From assembly GCA_018818835.1 (NCBI GenBank), contig JAHIRD010000167.1, positions 1 through 49,010 on the forward strand: DNA of 49,010 bases, in the 5' to 3' direction. This document shows, piece by piece, positions 10,522 through 48,975 of the stretch (its first letter is position 1; the number at the start of each line of letters is the position of its first letter). The notes beneath the pieces were generated by a model. That model was not told the origin of the DNA. It ran no database searches and saw only the letters and a program-made list of their open reading frames with translations. The position numbers and the translations under genes were made by a program. This DNA comes from Pseudomonadota bacterium (GTDB lineage Bacteria; Desulfobacterota; Desulfobacteria; Desulfobacterales; Desulfolunaceae).

Positions 10522-10797
10522 ATCGAAATCGGGATCGAAATTGATTTGCTCAGATCCATAGACCGCGGAGTCTTCTTGACACCACCCAGACCGGTGTAAG
10601 CCTCCCAGATTTCTTCTCGCTCCCAGGCTCCTGCCTGGGAGTGTATTCTGCATGGCTCCAGCCATGCTTGTGGAGGCAAGAGCCCCCGGATTGGCATTCC
10701 CAGGCAGGAGCCTGGGAACGAAGCGACATAGCATATTGAACGGCGATAGACATCACATTTTTCGTGTCAAAATGTCATTTTCGATCCCGATTTCGAT
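10522..10797. repeat. Perfect 19-bp inverted repeat flanking palindromic element A
   Basis: ATCGAAATCGGGATCGAAA at 10522-10540 has its exact inverted complement at 10779-10797. The two arms enclose about 238 bases that contain the composite palindromic repeat at 10616-10722. The arms extend into further GATTTC/GAAATC words. This could be a nested repeat or a non-autonomous element; no target-site duplication was identified. Confidence 0.6.
10616..10722 (+). repeat. Composite palindromic element, copy A (REPIN-like)
   Basis: A 107-bp element with four hairpins in order: hairpin 1 (CTCCCAGGC ... GCCTGGGAG), hairpin 2 (ATGGCT-CC-AGCCAT), hairpin 3 (GGAGGC-AAGA-GCC), hairpin 4 (TTCCCAGGC ... GCCTGGGAA). 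The left end reads CTCGCTCCC and the right end GGGAACGAA. The centre of hairpin 1 (CAGGCTCCTGCCTG) is the exact inverted complement of that of hairpin 4 (CAGGCAGGAGCCTG), so the whole element is also one large palindrome. Confidence 0.85.
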
Positions 10798-15796: not shown

Positions 15797-15904
15797 TTCG
15801 TTCCCAGGCTCCAGCCTGGGAATGCCTTCCTGGAGGCTCTTGCCTCCTGTCTGCATGGCTGGAGCCATGGTGTATACACTCCCAGGCTGGAGCCTGGGAG
15901 CGAG
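15797..15904 (-). repeat. Composite palindromic element, copy B (REPIN-like, inverted)
   Basis: A full four-hairpin element in minus orientation. The left end is TTCGTTCCC, then come GGAGGC-TCTT-GCCTCC and ATGGCTGGAGCCAT, and the right end is GGGAGCGAG. The terminal hairpin centres CAGGCTCCAGCCTG and CAGGCTGGAGCCTG are exact inverted complements. It lies directly upstream of the truncated secreted-protein gene. Confidence 0.85.
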
Positions 15905-16063
15905 GACGGTGTTCCAGAGCCCGGGAGCGAGGACGGTGTTCCAGAGCCCGGGAGCGAGGACGGTGTTCCAGAGCCTGGGAGCGAGGACGGTGTTCCAGAG
16001 CCTGGGAGCGAGGACGGTGTTCCAGAGCCCGGGAGCGAGGACGGTGTTCCAGAGCCTGGGAGC
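15899..16063 (-). repeat. 27-bp tandem repeat, six copies, attached to the CTCGC end of element B
   Basis: Six consecutive units with a 27-base period, the marker GTTCCAGAGCC recurring at 15911, 15938 and so on to about 16046. Each unit contains the GGGAGCGAG element end plus ACGGTGTTCCAGAGCC. Copies differ mostly by CCC/CCT. Being a multiple of three, the array is open in several frames; no start or ribosome site supports translation. Confidence 0.9.
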
Positions 16064-16194
16064 GGGGAAAAAAATTTGAAACCGTTGGAACGTTACAGAT
16101 AAACGTTAGTGATCAATTCGTTTAGATCAATAATCAAGATTTAGCACTGATTTAGAATATGCCCGTATATGTTTCAAAATAGATTCACAATAAC

Positions 16195-42922: not shown

Positions 42923-43026
42923 CTCGTTCCCAGGCTCCGGCCTGGGAATGTGGCTCCGGCCTGGGAATGTGGCTCCGGACTGGGAATGTGGCTCCGGACT
43001 GAAAATGGGGCTCGGGCCTGGGAGCG
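42923..43026. repeat. Degenerate palindromic element, copy C, with 19-bp tandem
   Basis: It starts CTCGTTCCCAGGCTCCGGCC and ends GGGAGCGC, but the centre is replaced by four imperfect 19-bp units of TGGGAATGTGGCTCCGGCC. It lies 20 bases after the giant surface-protein stop. Confidence 0.75.
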
Positions 43027-43087
43027 CTTAAACCATGACTCCGACCATACCCTTTGAACAGGATTGACAGATAGGACAGAATAGATC

Positions 43088-44302
43088 ATGTGGAATAACA
43101 AACAAACCGTTCGCACCTCTCCATCGTCGCCTCGTTCCCAGGCTCCGGCCTGGGAATGCATACCCCATGGCTCTGCCATGTGCTTTATCGTCATGATGAT
43201 TGTTCTGGCACTGTTTTTAACAGCCTGCTCAGGCACAGATTCAGCCTTAAGCGATTCCACAACCGTCAAGCAGGGCCATTTCACCTTCGGCCCCACCCAG
43301 GGCCTGACTTACGAATGCAAGGACCTTTCAGGACAAACCGACAGTACCGGTGCCTATGAATACTATGAAAACGAATCCGTTTCATTTTATGTGGGAAACA
43401 TGCGTATCGGTTCTGCAACGGGAAAAGCACGAATCACGCCCAAAGATTTTACTGAGTTCACCGATACAGCCCCGGTCTGCTCATTTCTTTTAAGAGCGGA
43501 CAATGACCAAAATCCCATCAACGGCATTTCAATCAACGAAACCCTGGCTTCCCAGATCGGCCAGGAACAGGAATACTACCCCCATGACATCTGTCAAGGC
43601 CTTGTATGGCAAGGAACAACATACCGCATTTTTTTTGATAGCCCCAGCGAATCCGAAGACTGTGACCCGGAAGCTAATGAAACACTGATCCACATCACAC
43701 TTGAAAACGGGGCCATAAAAGGTTTCCGTCCTCTGTCTGAATCCGACACATCCAAACAGACAGAGGACGATGGGATCTTTTCTCTGGAAGAAACTGAATT
43801 CGACACAGACCCGAGCCTGACCAACCTGTTTCTCAACAGTTTCGCATCGTCGGGAATTAACCGCTTCATGACCTATTGCCAAGATACAAACCAGGTTCTC
43901 GACGGCTGGTACTCGCCGTTCTGGTCCCTGCCCGAGGCATACCGGAATTACCTTCGTGACCTTGCCGATAAAACCCTGTACGTTGCAAGCTTCACTCCCT
44001 ACACCGGCATTTATTCAGGTTCATTTGAAGGGAAAGGGTTTTCCGGAAATCTCAGACTGCAGATCACTCTCAATTATTTTGCAGGCTGCAAGGTCCGGCA
44101 TGTCTATGGGAGTACCTGTAACGGCGATGATATAAGTGTTTACGGAGATGTGATCAACGACGAAACCGGAGAAATCGAATTTGAAATCCCTGAGTTTGGT
44201 CTGACATTTATCGGGATTGTCCATCCGGATGCAGGCACCCTGTCCGGATCATTTTATGACCGGGATGATAACCAAGCTGGAACGTTTTCCTGCGAGAAAT
44301 AG
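43088..44302 (+). CDS. Secreted lipoprotein, unknown function, with a palindromic repeat inside its 5' end
   Basis: 404 codons from the ATG at 43088. Residues 1-14 (MWNNKQTVRTSPSS) are followed by 17 residues encoded by a half palindromic element (PRSQAPAWECIPHGSAM), then a lipoprotein signal MCFIVMMIVLALFLTAC. The mature part of about 350 residues has paired cysteines (for example CDPEANE, TYCQDTN, CKVRHVYGSTC) and beta-rich segments such as GIYSGSFEGKGFSGNLRLQI near the end, typical of surface carbohydrate-associated proteins. No family recognised. AGGA lies eleven bases before 43088. A start at 43178, supplied by the repeat itself, or at 43193 would give a conventional short lipoprotein signal. 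It follows the giant surface gene. Confidence 0.68.
   Translation: MWNNKQTVRTSPSSPRSQAPAWECIPHGSAMCFIVMMIVLALFLTACSGTDSALSDSTTVKQGHFTFGPTQGLTYECKDLSGQTDSTGAYEYYENESVSFYVGNMRIGSATGKARITPKDFTEFTDTAPVCSFLLRADNDQNPINGISINETLASQIGQEQEYYPHDICQGLVWQGTTYRIFFDSPSESEDCDPEANETLIHITLENGAIKGFRPLSESDTSKQTEDDGIFSLEETEFDTDPSLTNLFLNSFASSGINRFMTYCQDTNQVLDGWYSPFWSLPEAYRNYLRDLADKTLYVASFTPYTGIYSGSFEGKGFSGNLRLQITLNYFAGCKVRHVYGSTCNGDDISVYGDVINDETGEIEFEIPEFGLTFIGIVHPDAGTLSGSFYDRDDNQAGTFSCEK
43131..43181 (+). repeat. Half palindromic element, copy D, in frame within a coding region
   Basis: 51 bases (17 codons) starting CTCGTTCCCAGGCTCCGGCC and including hairpin 2 as ATGGCTCTGCCAT. Only the left half of the composite element is present, and the reading frame of the lipoprotein gene stays open through it. 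Confidence 0.8.
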
Positions 44303-44342
44303 CCCGGCTCGCTCCTGGATCCCAGGCCCCGGTTCCACACTC

Positions 44343-44448
44343 CTCGCTCCCGGGCTCAGGCCTGGGAGTGTATACCCATGGCTCCAGCCATACACGTGGA
44401 GGCAAGAGCCTCCGGGAAGGCATTCCCAGGCTGGAGCCTGGGAACGAG
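44343..44448 (+). repeat. Composite palindromic element, copy E
   Basis: Complete four-hairpin element: CTCGCTCCCGGGCTCAGGCC at the left, hairpin 2 ATGGCTCCAGCCAT, hairpin 3 GGAGGCAAGAGCCTCC, right end GGGAACGAG. First unit of a 176-177-bp tandem series (E, F, G). Confidence 0.88.
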
Positions 44449-44462
44449 AGGAGGGAGGATTC

Positions 44463-44518
44463 CTCGCTCTCAGGATCTGGCCCCACCCTCCTCGCTCCCG
44501 ATTTCCAGCTACACCCTC
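44463..44518 (+). repeat. Two 28-bp units before element F
   Basis: CTCGCTC starts at 44463 and 44491 and is followed by the CTCG of element F at 44519, an exact 28-base period. The unit ends (CACCCTC) are constant while the 12-14 bases in between differ (AGGATCTGGCCC, GATTTCCAGCTA). Confidence 0.85.
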
Positions 44519-44625
44519 CTCGCTCCCAGGCTCCGGCCTGGGAGTGTATACCGCATGGCTCCAGCCATACACGTGGAGGCAAGAGCCTCCGGGAAGGCAT
44601 TCCCAGGCTGGAGCCTGGGAACGAG
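44519..44625 (+). repeat. Composite palindromic element, copy F
   Basis: Complete 107-bp element in plus orientation. It starts with CTCGCTCCCAGGCTCCGGCC, has hairpins 2 and 3 as in copy E, and ends GGGAACGAG. It lies 176 bases after the start of copy E. Confidence 0.9.
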
Positions 44626-44639
44626 GAGAGGGAGAATTC

Positions 44640-44695
44640 CTCGCTCACAGGATACGGCTACACACTCCTCGCTCCCGATTTCCAGCTACACCCTC
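44640..44695 (+). repeat. Two 28-bp units before element G
   Basis: Units begin at 44640 and 44668, followed by element G at 44696, again an exact 28-base spacing. Core sequences are AGGATACGGCTA and GATTTCCAGCTA. Confidence 0.85.
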
Positions 44696-44802
44696 CTCGC
44701 TCCCAGGCTCCGGCCTGGGAATTTATACCCCATGGCTCCTGCCATGCATGTGGAGGCAAGAGCCTCAGGATAGGCATCCCCAGGCTGGAGCCTGGGAACG
44801 AG
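44696..44802 (+). repeat. Composite palindromic element, copy G, downstream flank of the RAYT gene
   Basis: Complete 107-bp element. Hairpin 2 is ATGGCTCCTGCCAT and the right end is GGGAACGAG. It ends 24 bases before the stop codon of the transposase gene, which is read toward it. Confidence 0.9.
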
Positions 44803-44826
44803 AGGATAATGCAAGACGACTATCAA

Positions 44827-45363
44827 TCAGAGCACCAGCTTCTCGATGGGCACCAGGCCCAGGTCTCCGGCATAGTCCCTGGCGCTGGAATAGCGCCAGT
44901 GCTCCGGCCGATCCACATAACCCCGCTTCACAGGATTGTAATGCACATAGTCTATTTTACCTGACATCATGACCTCATCCAGAATCTGCTCGGGGTGAAA
45001 CCCTTCCTGCCAGACTTGATAGGCCTGATCGCATTTATGTTTCTTCTTGTAAAAACGCATCTGATTCAAAAACATGCTCGGACCGTTTCTATCAAGATAG
45101 GCCACAACTGCCTTTGCCGTAAAAGATTTCATGTTTCGGACCTGGGAAGACATATCATGCGATGATGCCACCACATGGATGTGTGTTTCCATAATCACCC
45201 AGGCATGGAGGGTCATCCGCCCATCCTGGTGCATAAAAGCAAGTGAATCCACCACGATTTCTGCACATTGAGGTATGGCAAAAAGAGGTAGCCAGTTGAT
45301 CACACTGCTGGTGATAAAGTAAGTGTTTCCACTATCAAATGTTTTGTAACGACTTCGGCCCAT
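44827..45363 (-). CDS. REP-associated tyrosine transposase (RAYT, IS200/Y1 superfamily)
   Basis: 178 residues of the Y1 transposase fold. The HUH metal motif is His61-Ile-His63 in VIMETHIHVVAS. The C-terminal hallmark of RAYTs is present: KIDYVHYNPVKRGYVDRPEH followed by WRYSSARDYAG. In the helix where the nucleophile is expected, the sequence is MKSFTAKAVVAYL, with Tyr89 a candidate; the exact nucleophile cannot be assigned by eye. RAYTs are single-copy, domesticated relatives of IS200 transposases that nick and move REP/REPIN palindromes. This one sits between two complete elements of the same orientation (G and H), 24 and 91 bases away, the classic REP-RAYT arrangement. Complete frame, with no inverted-repeat ends of a normal IS. 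Confidence 0.9.
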   Translation of the reverse strand: MGRSRYKTFDSGNTYFITSSVINWLPLFAIPQCAEIVVDSLAFMHQDGRMTLHAWVIMETHIHVVASSHDMSSQVRNMKSFTAKAVVAYLDRNGPSMFLNQMRFYKKKHKCDQAYQVWQEGFHPEQILDEVMMSGKIDYVHYNPVKRGYVDRPEHWRYSSARDYAGDLGLVPIEKLVL

Positions 45364-45398
45364 ATCATTGTTTCCTCATAATCCTGTCCCGTTAACTC

Positions 45399-45454
45399 CT
45401 TGCTCCTGGGCACTGGCTCCACCCTCCTCGCTCCCAGGCTCCGACTGCACACTC
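45399..45454 (+). repeat. Two 28-bp units before element H
   Basis: Units begin at 45399 (CTTGCTC) and 45427 (CTCGCTC) and are followed exactly in phase by element H at 45455. Variable cores are GGGCACTGGCTC and AGGCTCCGACTG, with CACCCTC/CACACTC ends. Confidence 0.85.
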
Positions 45455-45562
45455 CTCGCTCCCAGGCTCCGGCCTGGGAGTGTACACCCCATGGCTCCTG
45501 CCATGCACGTGGAGGCAAGAGCCTCAGAGGAGGCATTCCCAGGCAATGAACCTGGGAACGAG
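45455..45562 (+). repeat. Composite palindromic element, copy H, upstream flank of the RAYT gene
   Basis: Complete element beginning CTCGCTCCCAGGCTCCGGCC, with hairpins 2 and 3 (slightly altered, GCCTCAGAGGAGGC), ending GGGAACGAG. Hairpin 4 has diverged (CAGGCAATGAACCTG). It lies 91 bases upstream of the transposase start. Confidence 0.88.
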
Positions 45563-45660
45563 AAGAGTAATGATTATTTGCGATACATAGATGATCCTTG
45601 TCAAGGAATTTATGCCCAAGTAGGAAAAGATACCTGGACATATTACCGAATATCTCTAAG

Positions 45661-45756
45661 GATCCGGCTGGGAATGTGTACCCCATAGCTCCGACAATGC
45701 ACGTAGAGGCAAGAGCCTCAGGGGAGGCATTCCCAGGCAAAGAGCCTGGGAACGAG
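45661..45756 (+). repeat. Partly degraded palindromic element, copy I
   Basis: The left hairpin is eroded (GGATCCGGCTGGGAATG), and hairpin 2 is mutated (ATAGCTCCGACAAT). The right part, with GAGGCAAGAGCCTC and GGGAACGAG, is intact. It ends about 10 bases before the convergent YibE/F stop. Confidence 0.8.
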
Positions 45757-48597: not shown

Positions 48598-48780
48598 TTT
48601 CAAAATCCCCCATCTTTGAGCGTTAACATTATAAATTAATTTCCTGCCGTTCATTACCAATTTTTTTAGGATAAAATTTTGCCGTTTAGCTTGAGGTCTT
48701 GGAATAGTATTTAATGATCTTGTGTTAGAAAAAAATTATGAGTTGAATGGTATTTCATTAGATTGGTCATCTTTCCCAGG
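48598..48780. other. Promoter-side gap upstream of the phosphatase
   Basis: AT-rich and without a gene. A phosphatase promoter on the minus strand is expected here, but no convincing pair of boxes was identified. The last 10 bases (TTTCCCAGG) are a degenerate start of the repeat array that follows. Confidence 0.4.
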
Positions 48781-48796
48781 CTCTTGCTCCACCCTC

Positions 48797-48880
48797 CTCG
48801 CTCCCAGGCTCTTGCCCCACCCTCCTCGCTCCCAGGCTCTTGCCCCACCCTCCTCGCTCCCAGGCTCTTGCCCCACCCTC
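48797..48880 (+). repeat. 28-bp tandem array, three units, before element J
   Basis: CTCGCTCCCAGGCTCTTGCC plus CCACCCTC begins at 48797, 48825 and 48853, and element J begins at 48881, all spaced 28 bases apart. A partial earlier unit (CTCTTGCTCCACCCTC) starts at 48781. Unlike elsewhere, here the cores are identical, pointing to recent amplification. Confidence 0.92.
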
Positions 48881-48975
48881 CTCGCTCCCAGGCTCCGGCC
48901 TGGGAGTGTATACCCCATGCAATTGGAGGCAAGAGCCTCAGGATAGGCATTCCCAGGCTGGAGCCTGGGAACGAG
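48881..48975 (+). repeat. Composite palindromic element, copy J (hairpin 2 collapsed)
   Basis: It starts CTCGCTCCCAGGCTCCGGCC and ends GGGAACGAG, but the hairpin-2 region is shortened to CCATGCAATTGG. The 35 bases after it match the sequence after copy E (44449-44483), so another 28-bp unit probably continues past the window edge. Confidence 0.88.

Follow-up and report, generated by a model that had tools for sequence, protein, structure and literature searches.

The 49,010-nucleotide (nt) contig JAHIRD010000167.1 (here called the window, and taken at its full length) is contig C174 of a 6.75-Mb, 334-contig draft genome from the Desulfobacterales and carries a gene for a REP-associated tyrosine transposase (RAYT) amid copies of a palindromic element of about 107 bp. 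We consider it probable that gene and element form a REPIN-RAYT system built on a separate class of repetitive extragenic palindromes (REPs), in which the RAYT reads the strand of a hairpin with an unpaired 5' CT at its foot (a CT-hairpin) and spreads the ~107-bp elements. Hairpins with the same foot bases bracket relatives of this RAYT in about a dozen bacterial phyla, and the four-hairpin element itself reads as an inverted pair of two-hairpin arms. The gene, its predicted fold, the element, the subfamily-linked adjacency, the compensatory changes, and the strand bias are the parts of this account that are read from sequence.

The RAYT gene lies, as the first-pass annotation of the window had it, between complete element copies G and H, and is an intact open reading frame (ORF) whose 178-amino-acid product carries the motifs HIH (H61, H63), YVHYNPVK, and WRYSSARDY. 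NCBIfam family NF047646 ("REP-associated tyrosine transposase") matches the protein with 110 bits, above its cut-off of 80, and Pfam gave no match at E 1e-3. Escherichia coli TnpArep (4er8) is its sole PDB sequence relative at E ≤ 1, and in their alignment Tyr139, within YVHYNP, lines up with the catalytic tyrosine of the E. coli protein. A fold search with its AlphaFold model (mean pLDDT, 92.7) returned 4er8, a RAYT bound to a REP hairpin, as the top match (E = 4.7e-10), followed by IS200/IS605 transposases; by its HUH and Y---NP motifs, family score, and predicted Y1 fold, the protein falls in class 2 of the TnpAY1 transposases. The alignment keeps W94, Q95, Y115 (which we take to be the catalytic residue), and N119 of the E. 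coli protein and places P, E, and L where that protein has E100, H101, and R104. These last three are named for recognition of GTAG, the tetranucleotide that the E. coli protein contacts (PMC6006769), and their replacement fits a hairpin foot other than GTAG. The Q of WQ is not universal across the subfamily (WQ in 62 and WE in 13 of 76 alignment rows). The genome has a second intact RAYT (G000:C12:56-598; loci L087 and L243; 68% identity) at the start of its contig, which begins ACGAGG, as if broken inside a REP.

Comparison across genomes supports the link between gene and element, which the first-pass annotation gave as an inference. A five-RAYT alignment was searched against an 84,980-species collection, with repeats ignored, and the best 80 of 413 were used. 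The hairpin core CTCGYTCCCANGC (with N at the variable position and up to one mismatch) occurs within 500 bp of the gene at 64 of these 80 loci and on both sides at 52, with a density of 7.2 per kb at 0 to 100 bp versus 0.06 to 0.11 per kb at 2 to 5 kb; the reversed pattern, used as a control, is near the gene at 3. Among the 16 loci with no near core, about 10 were seen on inspection to share the foot, lower stem, and tail and to differ in the upper stem, and because the first pattern missed loci of this kind a general CT-hairpin search was made, which places a hairpin within 500 bp of the gene at 75 of the 80 loci (both sides, 55; background, 0.15 per kb at 3 to 5 kb). As a control, other Y1 transposases were taken at 36 loci in this genome and its relatives. 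With distances counted from the matched stretch, the core is within 700 bp at none of them; counted from the entire open frame, two have it within 500 bp (L006 and L009, on one side each, at 355 and 333 bp), none has it on both sides, and five have the general hairpin, three of them inside the frame. The core is present at 7 of 9 close-subfamily loci and the general hairpin at 6 of 9. A phylum-wide search gave 38 RAYT matches, and of 20 loci taken from these (at least 3 already in the 80-locus set), 14 have the general hairpin. Hairpins around the gene usually form an inverted pair whose CT ends face outward (upstream "+", 37; downstream "-", 40), and the opposite orientations are rarer (upstream "-", 14; downstream "+", 17). 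The proposal that this is a system of the REPIN-RAYT type is thus supported, with subfamily and hairpin found together at 64 (core) and 75 (general) of 80 loci versus 2 and 5 of 36.

REP type also clusters on the RAYT tree, with 9 changes versus 15.3 when labels are shuffled and none of 300 shuffles as low (labels on 70 of 76 tree rows, or 43 once "other" is removed), which fits co-evolution or plain co-inheritance. The tree rows fall into 12 named groups, chiefly Pseudomonadota (23 of 76) and Campylobacterota (21), with 10 rows ungrouped. The underlying alignment (A4, 76 rows) holds 71 of the 80 loci, the window, and four genome-search loci; left out were L099, L119, L121, L134, and L139 (match not open), L100 (same gene as L067), and, by choice, L116, L117, and L143. 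A further alignment (A5) holds 46 loci and the window.

The 80 loci supply 109 hairpins that have a near-CTCG foot, and their consensus is 5'-CT-CGTTCCCANGC-loop-GCN'TGGGAAYG-CATA-3', with ATGCATA exactly after GGGA in 47. Base 3 of the tag and base 2 of the tail are Watson-Crick partners in 106 of the 109, oriented by CT alone (C-G 89, A-T 9, G-C 6, T-A 2; shuffled mean, 76), and the stem is therefore 11 bp long, with a 5' CT and a 3' CATA as its free feet. The same covariation was considered as pairing between a guide and a cleavage site and was set aside for the simpler 11-bp stem. The CTCG ends described in the first-pass annotation are partly paired: the stem of each outer hairpin reaches two bases into them, and the unpaired foot is only 5' CT; CT[ACGT]G is the foot of the 109 CT-oriented hairpins and of the window copies. 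A set with one hairpin per locus (81 of 91 loci, namely the 80 and 11 others, with 10 giving none under a stricter rule; 73 distinct) has 98.1% of cells paired, a value inflated by row selection as discussed below, with both-sided compensatory change in 104 cells versus 19 when shuffled and a covariation of 0.491 versus 0.03 to 0.08 when slid. The upper stem varies by compensatory change; the foot, lower stem, and tail are common to cyanobacteria through Campylobacterota.

At the variable position, with pairing not required, the tagged strand has C-G 67, T.G 26, G-C 9, A-T 6, and C.A 1. Because G.T wobble is kept on this strand and avoided on the other (26 versus 1; p = 4e-7, nominal), the bias points to the tagged strand as the one that is folded and read. 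One-strand wobble suits RNA equally with single-stranded DNA (ssDNA), and together with the strong folds it could mean that the elements are kept as RNA structures, such as terminators or mRNA stabilizers, with a G.U tolerance that reflects the transcript. We regard this as quite unlikely: the tagged strand faces outward on both sides of the RAYT (37 and 40 of 108 hairpins outside genes), the elements are inverted pairs, so that a single transcript reads both tag orientations, and an Rfam scan of the window found no family at threshold.

The window element had been described as a repeat of about 107 bp with four hairpins and seven full copies. The repeat is plain, since the element core CTCGYTCCCAGGC (up to two mismatches) matches the window 35 times (shuffles: mean, 1.3; maximum, 5), and seven near-complete copies (A, B, E, F, G, H, and J) align with a mean column identity of 91%. 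All four hairpins are present in six of the seven, J being without most of inner hairpin 1. The gene and the element copies, with the hairpins of reference copy F, are as follows.

10616-10722, forward strand: element A, complete (alignment, covariance model)
15797-15904, reverse strand: element B, complete (alignment, covariance model)
42923-43028, forward strand: element C, left REP then 19-bp repeats (covariance model, tandem-repeat search)
43131-43227, forward strand: element D, left arm only, tail TGCATA (covariance model); overlaps the 5' part of ORF 43088-44302
44343-44448, forward strand: element E, complete (alignment, covariance model)
44519-44625, forward strand: element F, four-hairpin reference copy (covariance model, 134.5 bits; fold z about -7.5 on both strands)
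44519-44546, forward strand: left REP of F, CT plus an 11-bp stem with G.T as second pair and loop TCCG (sequence reading)
44555-44568, forward strand: inner hairpin 1 of F, ATGGC-TCCA-GCCAT (element alignment)
44575-44590, forward strand: inner hairpin 2 of F, GGAGGC-AAGA-GCCTCC (element alignment)
44598-44625, reverse strand: right REP of F, inverted, CT-CGTTCCCAGGC-TCCA-GCCTGGGAATG (sequence reading)
44696-44802, forward strand: element G, complete, adjoining the RAYT 3' end (alignment, covariance model)
44827-45363, reverse strand: RAYT gene, intact ORF of 178 amino acids
45455-45562, forward strand: element H, complete, 5' of the RAYT (alignment, covariance model)
45650-45756, forward strand: element I, left REP degenerate (covariance model, 70.3 bits)
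48881-48975, forward strand: element J, inner hairpin 1 mostly deleted, a 12-base gap (alignment)

The element has the geometry of a REPIN, that is, two inverted REPs able to fold into one hairpin. Among eight ssDNA folds (five copies, of which three were folded on both strands; z-scores, -5.1 to -9.6), the long outer stem is the minimum-energy form in seven, copy H having a minimum-energy fold without it. Copies E, F, and G (44343-44802) share a 177-bp tandem period (177-nt repeat at 93%) and are probably local duplicates.

The composite of four hairpins proposed in the first-pass annotation is supported and takes on a new reading. Near the RAYT genes, a second hairpin (≥5 pairs, ≤36 nt) stands 3' of 86 of 258 hairpins versus 5' of 27 of 258 (shuffles, 4.9%), a count from 91 loci in which symmetric hairpins may enter in both orientations. 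When each locus contributes a single arm, a second hairpin is present in 34 of 81, in 26 cases 6 to 9 nt from the first, and at 20 of the 34 the three bases before the loop are equal in both hairpins (5,000 shuffles: mean, 6.8; highest, 16). These observations argue for the four-hairpin element as an inverted pair of two-hairpin arms. Around RAYTs at 24 loci, the spacers of 42 doublets hold two hairpins in 11 cases, one in 22, none in 6, and three or more in 3. The clearest likeness to the window design is in a Chloroflexota genome (L141; 97 bp; 5 of its 6 copies have two separate inner hairpins). In Desulfoluna (L067, L100), cyanobacteria (L113), and L096, inner-hairpin sequence stands at both ends of a longer spacer, where RNAfold pairs the two ends with each other; in L138 and L172 it is clear at one spacer end, and the spacers of the remaining doublets are unstructured.

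A covariance model built from the seven window copies gives 96 strand-hits in the genome, which merge into 53 places spread over 34 contigs. The true number may be higher, since 150 of 1,286 first-look candidates were scored, and the 334-contig assembly may have collapsed element copies. Ten of these places are on this contig, compared with 0.38 expected if they were spread uniformly, and seven lie within about 3 kb around the RAYT. Because of this excess the window is a hot spot around the RAYT and not a sample of a large population, and the large genomic population that the first-pass annotation drew from its seven copies does not follow. A tail-free exact hairpin pattern, counted in full, matches the genome 51 times, 12 of them on this contig (reversed control, 0); a strict CATA-tailed pattern was rejected as a presence test as too narrow, with 9 matches in the same genome versus 51. 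REPs usually number more than 100 per genome as described in PMC2817692. By either count (51 matches, at least 53 places) this genome is short of the high copy number of REPINs, which is reached in a related genome, G038, with 607 matches.

The window and 40 other loci of the genome (places C158 and C87 left out) yield 23 distinct inverted doublets. Fourteen are composites of 106 to 109 bp with both inner hairpins recognized, L060 is a further composite with a one-base register change, and in L223 both inner hairpins are retained but their stems differ (GAGAGGCTCTGCCTCTC, GAAGGCAAAGCCTTC), a compensatory change; the others are two of 95 bp, four of 79 bp, and one 49-bp stub (copy C). The 79-bp class, which is without much of the right half, is recurrent (L227, L228, L229, and L232), and this deletion form may have arisen through a short repeat that the right REP has in common with inner hairpin 2. 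Inverted-repeat copies of 79 to 109 bp resemble a miniature inverted-repeat transposable element, and the element might accordingly belong to another (DDE) transposase, its ends palindromic by chance. That origin is highly improbable, as the neighbors found are RAYTs of one subfamily, though no search for a DDE partner was made, and both the fold covariation and the one-strand wobble point to single-strand recognition.

The expectation that element abundance would track the RAYT among relatives holds in part. Among 58 relatives, at least 10 pattern matches occur in all 6 genomes with a close RAYT versus 7 of 52 without (Fisher p = 4e-5, uncorrected for kinship); the RAYT is full-length and open in four of the six (G000, G002, G026, and G030) and cut or broken in two (G052 and G055), and the small fragments in G005 were not counted. 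Within genus g3, the counts are 40 in G002 (intact RAYT), 26 in G003 (none), 3 in G005 (broken fragments), and then 1, 0, and 0. In a draw across the phylum, the strict pattern occurs in 6 of the 23 genomes that match A4 at E ≤ 1e-30 versus 9 of 372 others (p = 7e-5). Repeat number is not simply tied to the RAYT gene.

Several observations weigh against a RAYT that reads and spreads these hairpins. Three element-rich genomes have no close RAYT, even by profile: G038, a 6.7-Mb draft with 607 matches of the CTCGYTCCCANGC hairpin pattern, G018 with 100, and G047 with 50; and 17 of the 23 phylum-draw genomes with an A4 match are without the strict pattern, which 9 of the 372 others have. The general hairpin is missing at 5 of the 80 loci (one, L115, has the core with an ATCG foot) and at 6 of the 20 phylum-search loci (three strong RAYT matches and three weaker), and the core is missing at 2 of the 9 close-subfamily loci. 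In the window itself, the arm nearest the RAYT stop has its CT facing the gene, unlike the usual layout, and the 2.4 kb downstream of the second RAYT of this genome shows only weak, chance-like hairpin matches, its upstream side being cut by the contig end. The clustering of REP type on the tree could be plain co-inheritance. Hairpin rows were chosen by a near-CTCG tag or at most two stem mismatches, which inflates tag conservation and the percentage paired, and because the sequences are related the p values are nominal. Abundant copies in genomes with no close RAYT are what would be expected of chromosomal repeats independent of the RAYT, beside which RAYT genes insert as they would beside any existing palindrome. 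We think this unlikely, given the close inverted bracketing on both sides at 52 of 80 loci, the link to one subfamily (7 of 9 versus 2 of 36), and the clustering of REP type on the RAYT tree; the rich genomes also fit element populations that persist after their RAYT is gone, or RAYT genes missing from draft assemblies because they lie between repeats.

We keep to the reading of a REPIN-RAYT system, for which the mechanism below is the one we infer as regards binding, nicking, movement, the cleavage site, and what the second hairpin does. RAYTs act on REPs as folded single strands, binding and nicking them (PMC8266576). The RAYT, as an HUH/Y1 endonuclease, would recognize its hairpin as folded ssDNA on the tagged strand, in the form 5'-CT-[CGTTCCCANGC]-TCY(n)-[GCN'TGGGAAYG]-CATA-3'. 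At some loci a smaller second hairpin with the same tip, mostly 6 to 9 nt 3' of the first, would complete a two-hairpin arm, and two facing arms would make up the nonautonomous element of about 107 bp that the RAYT spreads through the genome. Nicking would probably fall at the hairpin foot, with the unpaired 5' CT or 3' CATA as candidate sites, and would take place when the lagging-strand template is single-stranded, inverted doublets spreading on the ssDNA of the fork. A bolder version, which we advance tentatively as falling a little short of an even chance, is that CT-hairpins are a third REP superfamily next to GTAG and CGTC, with foot and lower stem conserved over a dozen phyla because one ancient RAYT subfamily would have kept its recognition code, and that the substrate is bipartite, made up of a tagged outer hairpin and a smaller second hairpin of the same tip, both of which the transposase would read.

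Beside the full copies we also observed units of 27 to 28 bp, each half a REP hairpin, that the first-pass annotation did not describe. They stand directly on the CTCGC side of six of the seven full copies (A is the one left out), as follows.

15905-16066, reverse strand: array of six half-REP units (27 bp each), abutting the left REP of B on its 5' side
44315-44342: a single weak half-REP unit, 5' of E
44463-44518, forward strand: two 28-bp half-REP units, 5' of F
44640-44695: a pair similar to the units of F, 5' of G
45399-45454, forward strand: two 28-bp half-REP units, 5' of H
48769-48880, forward strand: array of four half-REP units (28 bp each), abutting the left REP of J on its 5' side

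At three loci outside the window (L022, L026, and L229), the REP 5' arm has been duplicated along with 5 to 12 nt of host flank, with a breakpoint in or near the loop. Because host flank is copied with the arm there, we rejected the arrays as separate elements and consider duplication with a hairpin breakpoint more likely. In copy C, the left REP is followed by 19-bp repeats (GGCTCCGGCCTGGGAATGT; 42933-43027). Long reading frames that run through the window elements (e.g., 44217-44972) are spurious and are explained by the elements. The longest reading of ORF 43088-44302 (forward strand), a putative lipoprotein, begins upstream of partial element D, and its true start may be a later ATG that precedes a signal-peptide-like stretch. 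In the two-contig genome G055, broken RAYT copies about 91 to 96% alike as DNA are scattered along contig C1 (L196, L204, L209, L212, and L215), and the right end of one is a second hairpin followed by an inverted REP; as the left ends are not at a CT foot, these fragments were dropped as proof that the unit is mobile.

The motifs of the RAYT subfamily agree with those of subclass 2.6 (Bertels group 5), for which Table 1 of PMC6006769 gives NH[LIV]H, WQ, YIH[QN]NP, and SS with a median of 179 amino acids. The subfamily has a median of 177 amino acids (76 A4 rows) and an HuH-Tyr distance of 78 (69 rows) versus 82 for subclass 2.6, with ENHLH in 44 and ENHIH in 13 of the 76 rows, YSS in 75, and YIHQNP in 25 and YIHNNP in 15, the remaining matched rows having other Y---NP forms; the motifs of the subclass are thus a tendency of the subfamily, and the window protein itself has ETHIH and YVHYNP. 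Genes of subclass 2.6 are described as flanked by "atypical," weaker secondary structures that were found by eye and have genomic copies, and as mostly from Bacteroidetes (PMC6006769). Compared with that description, the structure here is a CT-hairpin with a conserved foot and lower stem and with two-hairpin arms, spread over roughly a dozen phyla, and the subfamily is chiefly from Pseudomonadota and Campylobacterota, the Bacteroidetes majority being a description of that sample more than a strict definition.

The GTAG REPs and REPINs of group 2 or 3 RAYTs in E. coli, Pseudomonas, and Stenotrophomonas likewise have inverted hairpins that flank the RAYT, inverted doublets, and a 5' tetranucleotide at the hairpin foot, as described in PMC2817692, PMC8266576, and PMC3116915. 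Unlike them, the window element has no GT[AG]G, nor is a 5' GT[AG]G present in any of the 109 hairpins or the window copies; its foot consists of CT followed by two bases that pair, the protein has other residues at several positions of GTAG recognition, and some arms have a second hairpin. CGTC REPs share a non-GTAG tag but are described as not associated with transposase genes (PMC3733652), whereas the tag here is CT(CG) and a RAYT partner is present. Because the CGTC-3 dimers of Agrobacterium tumefaciens have spacers with two stem-loops (PMC3733652), the four-hairpin layout as such was already known and, as far as these sources describe, the shared hairpin tip is new. The TIRtrons (TIRYT), which have RAYT-like genes and inverted repeats unrelated to GTAG REPs, some of them "double palindromic" (PMC3733652), may include the CT-hairpin class. 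Element strings and CACGC variants searched in literature text gave no match on bacterial repeats by title, and CTCG does not occur in the text of PMC3733652 (supplements and figures lay outside both searches); in PMC2817692 it occurs twice, inside REP stems of Table 1 and not as a foot. Within the reach of these searches, what is new is the CT foot, the cross-phylum hairpin, and the two-hairpin arms, tied to a RAYT group that has been little described, and what is known is the REPIN-RAYT kind of system.

Repeats of the REP kind are commonly portrayed as species-specific, and yet several species are reported to share certain GTAG and CGTC families (PMC3733652). For the present RAYT group, a conserved foot, lower stem, and tail set against a variable upper stem separate the positions that would be recognized from those that are free to change. 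The CT-hairpin class makes the co-evolution of REPs and RAYTs directly testable, and the hairpin provides a DNA pattern by which such systems can be found.

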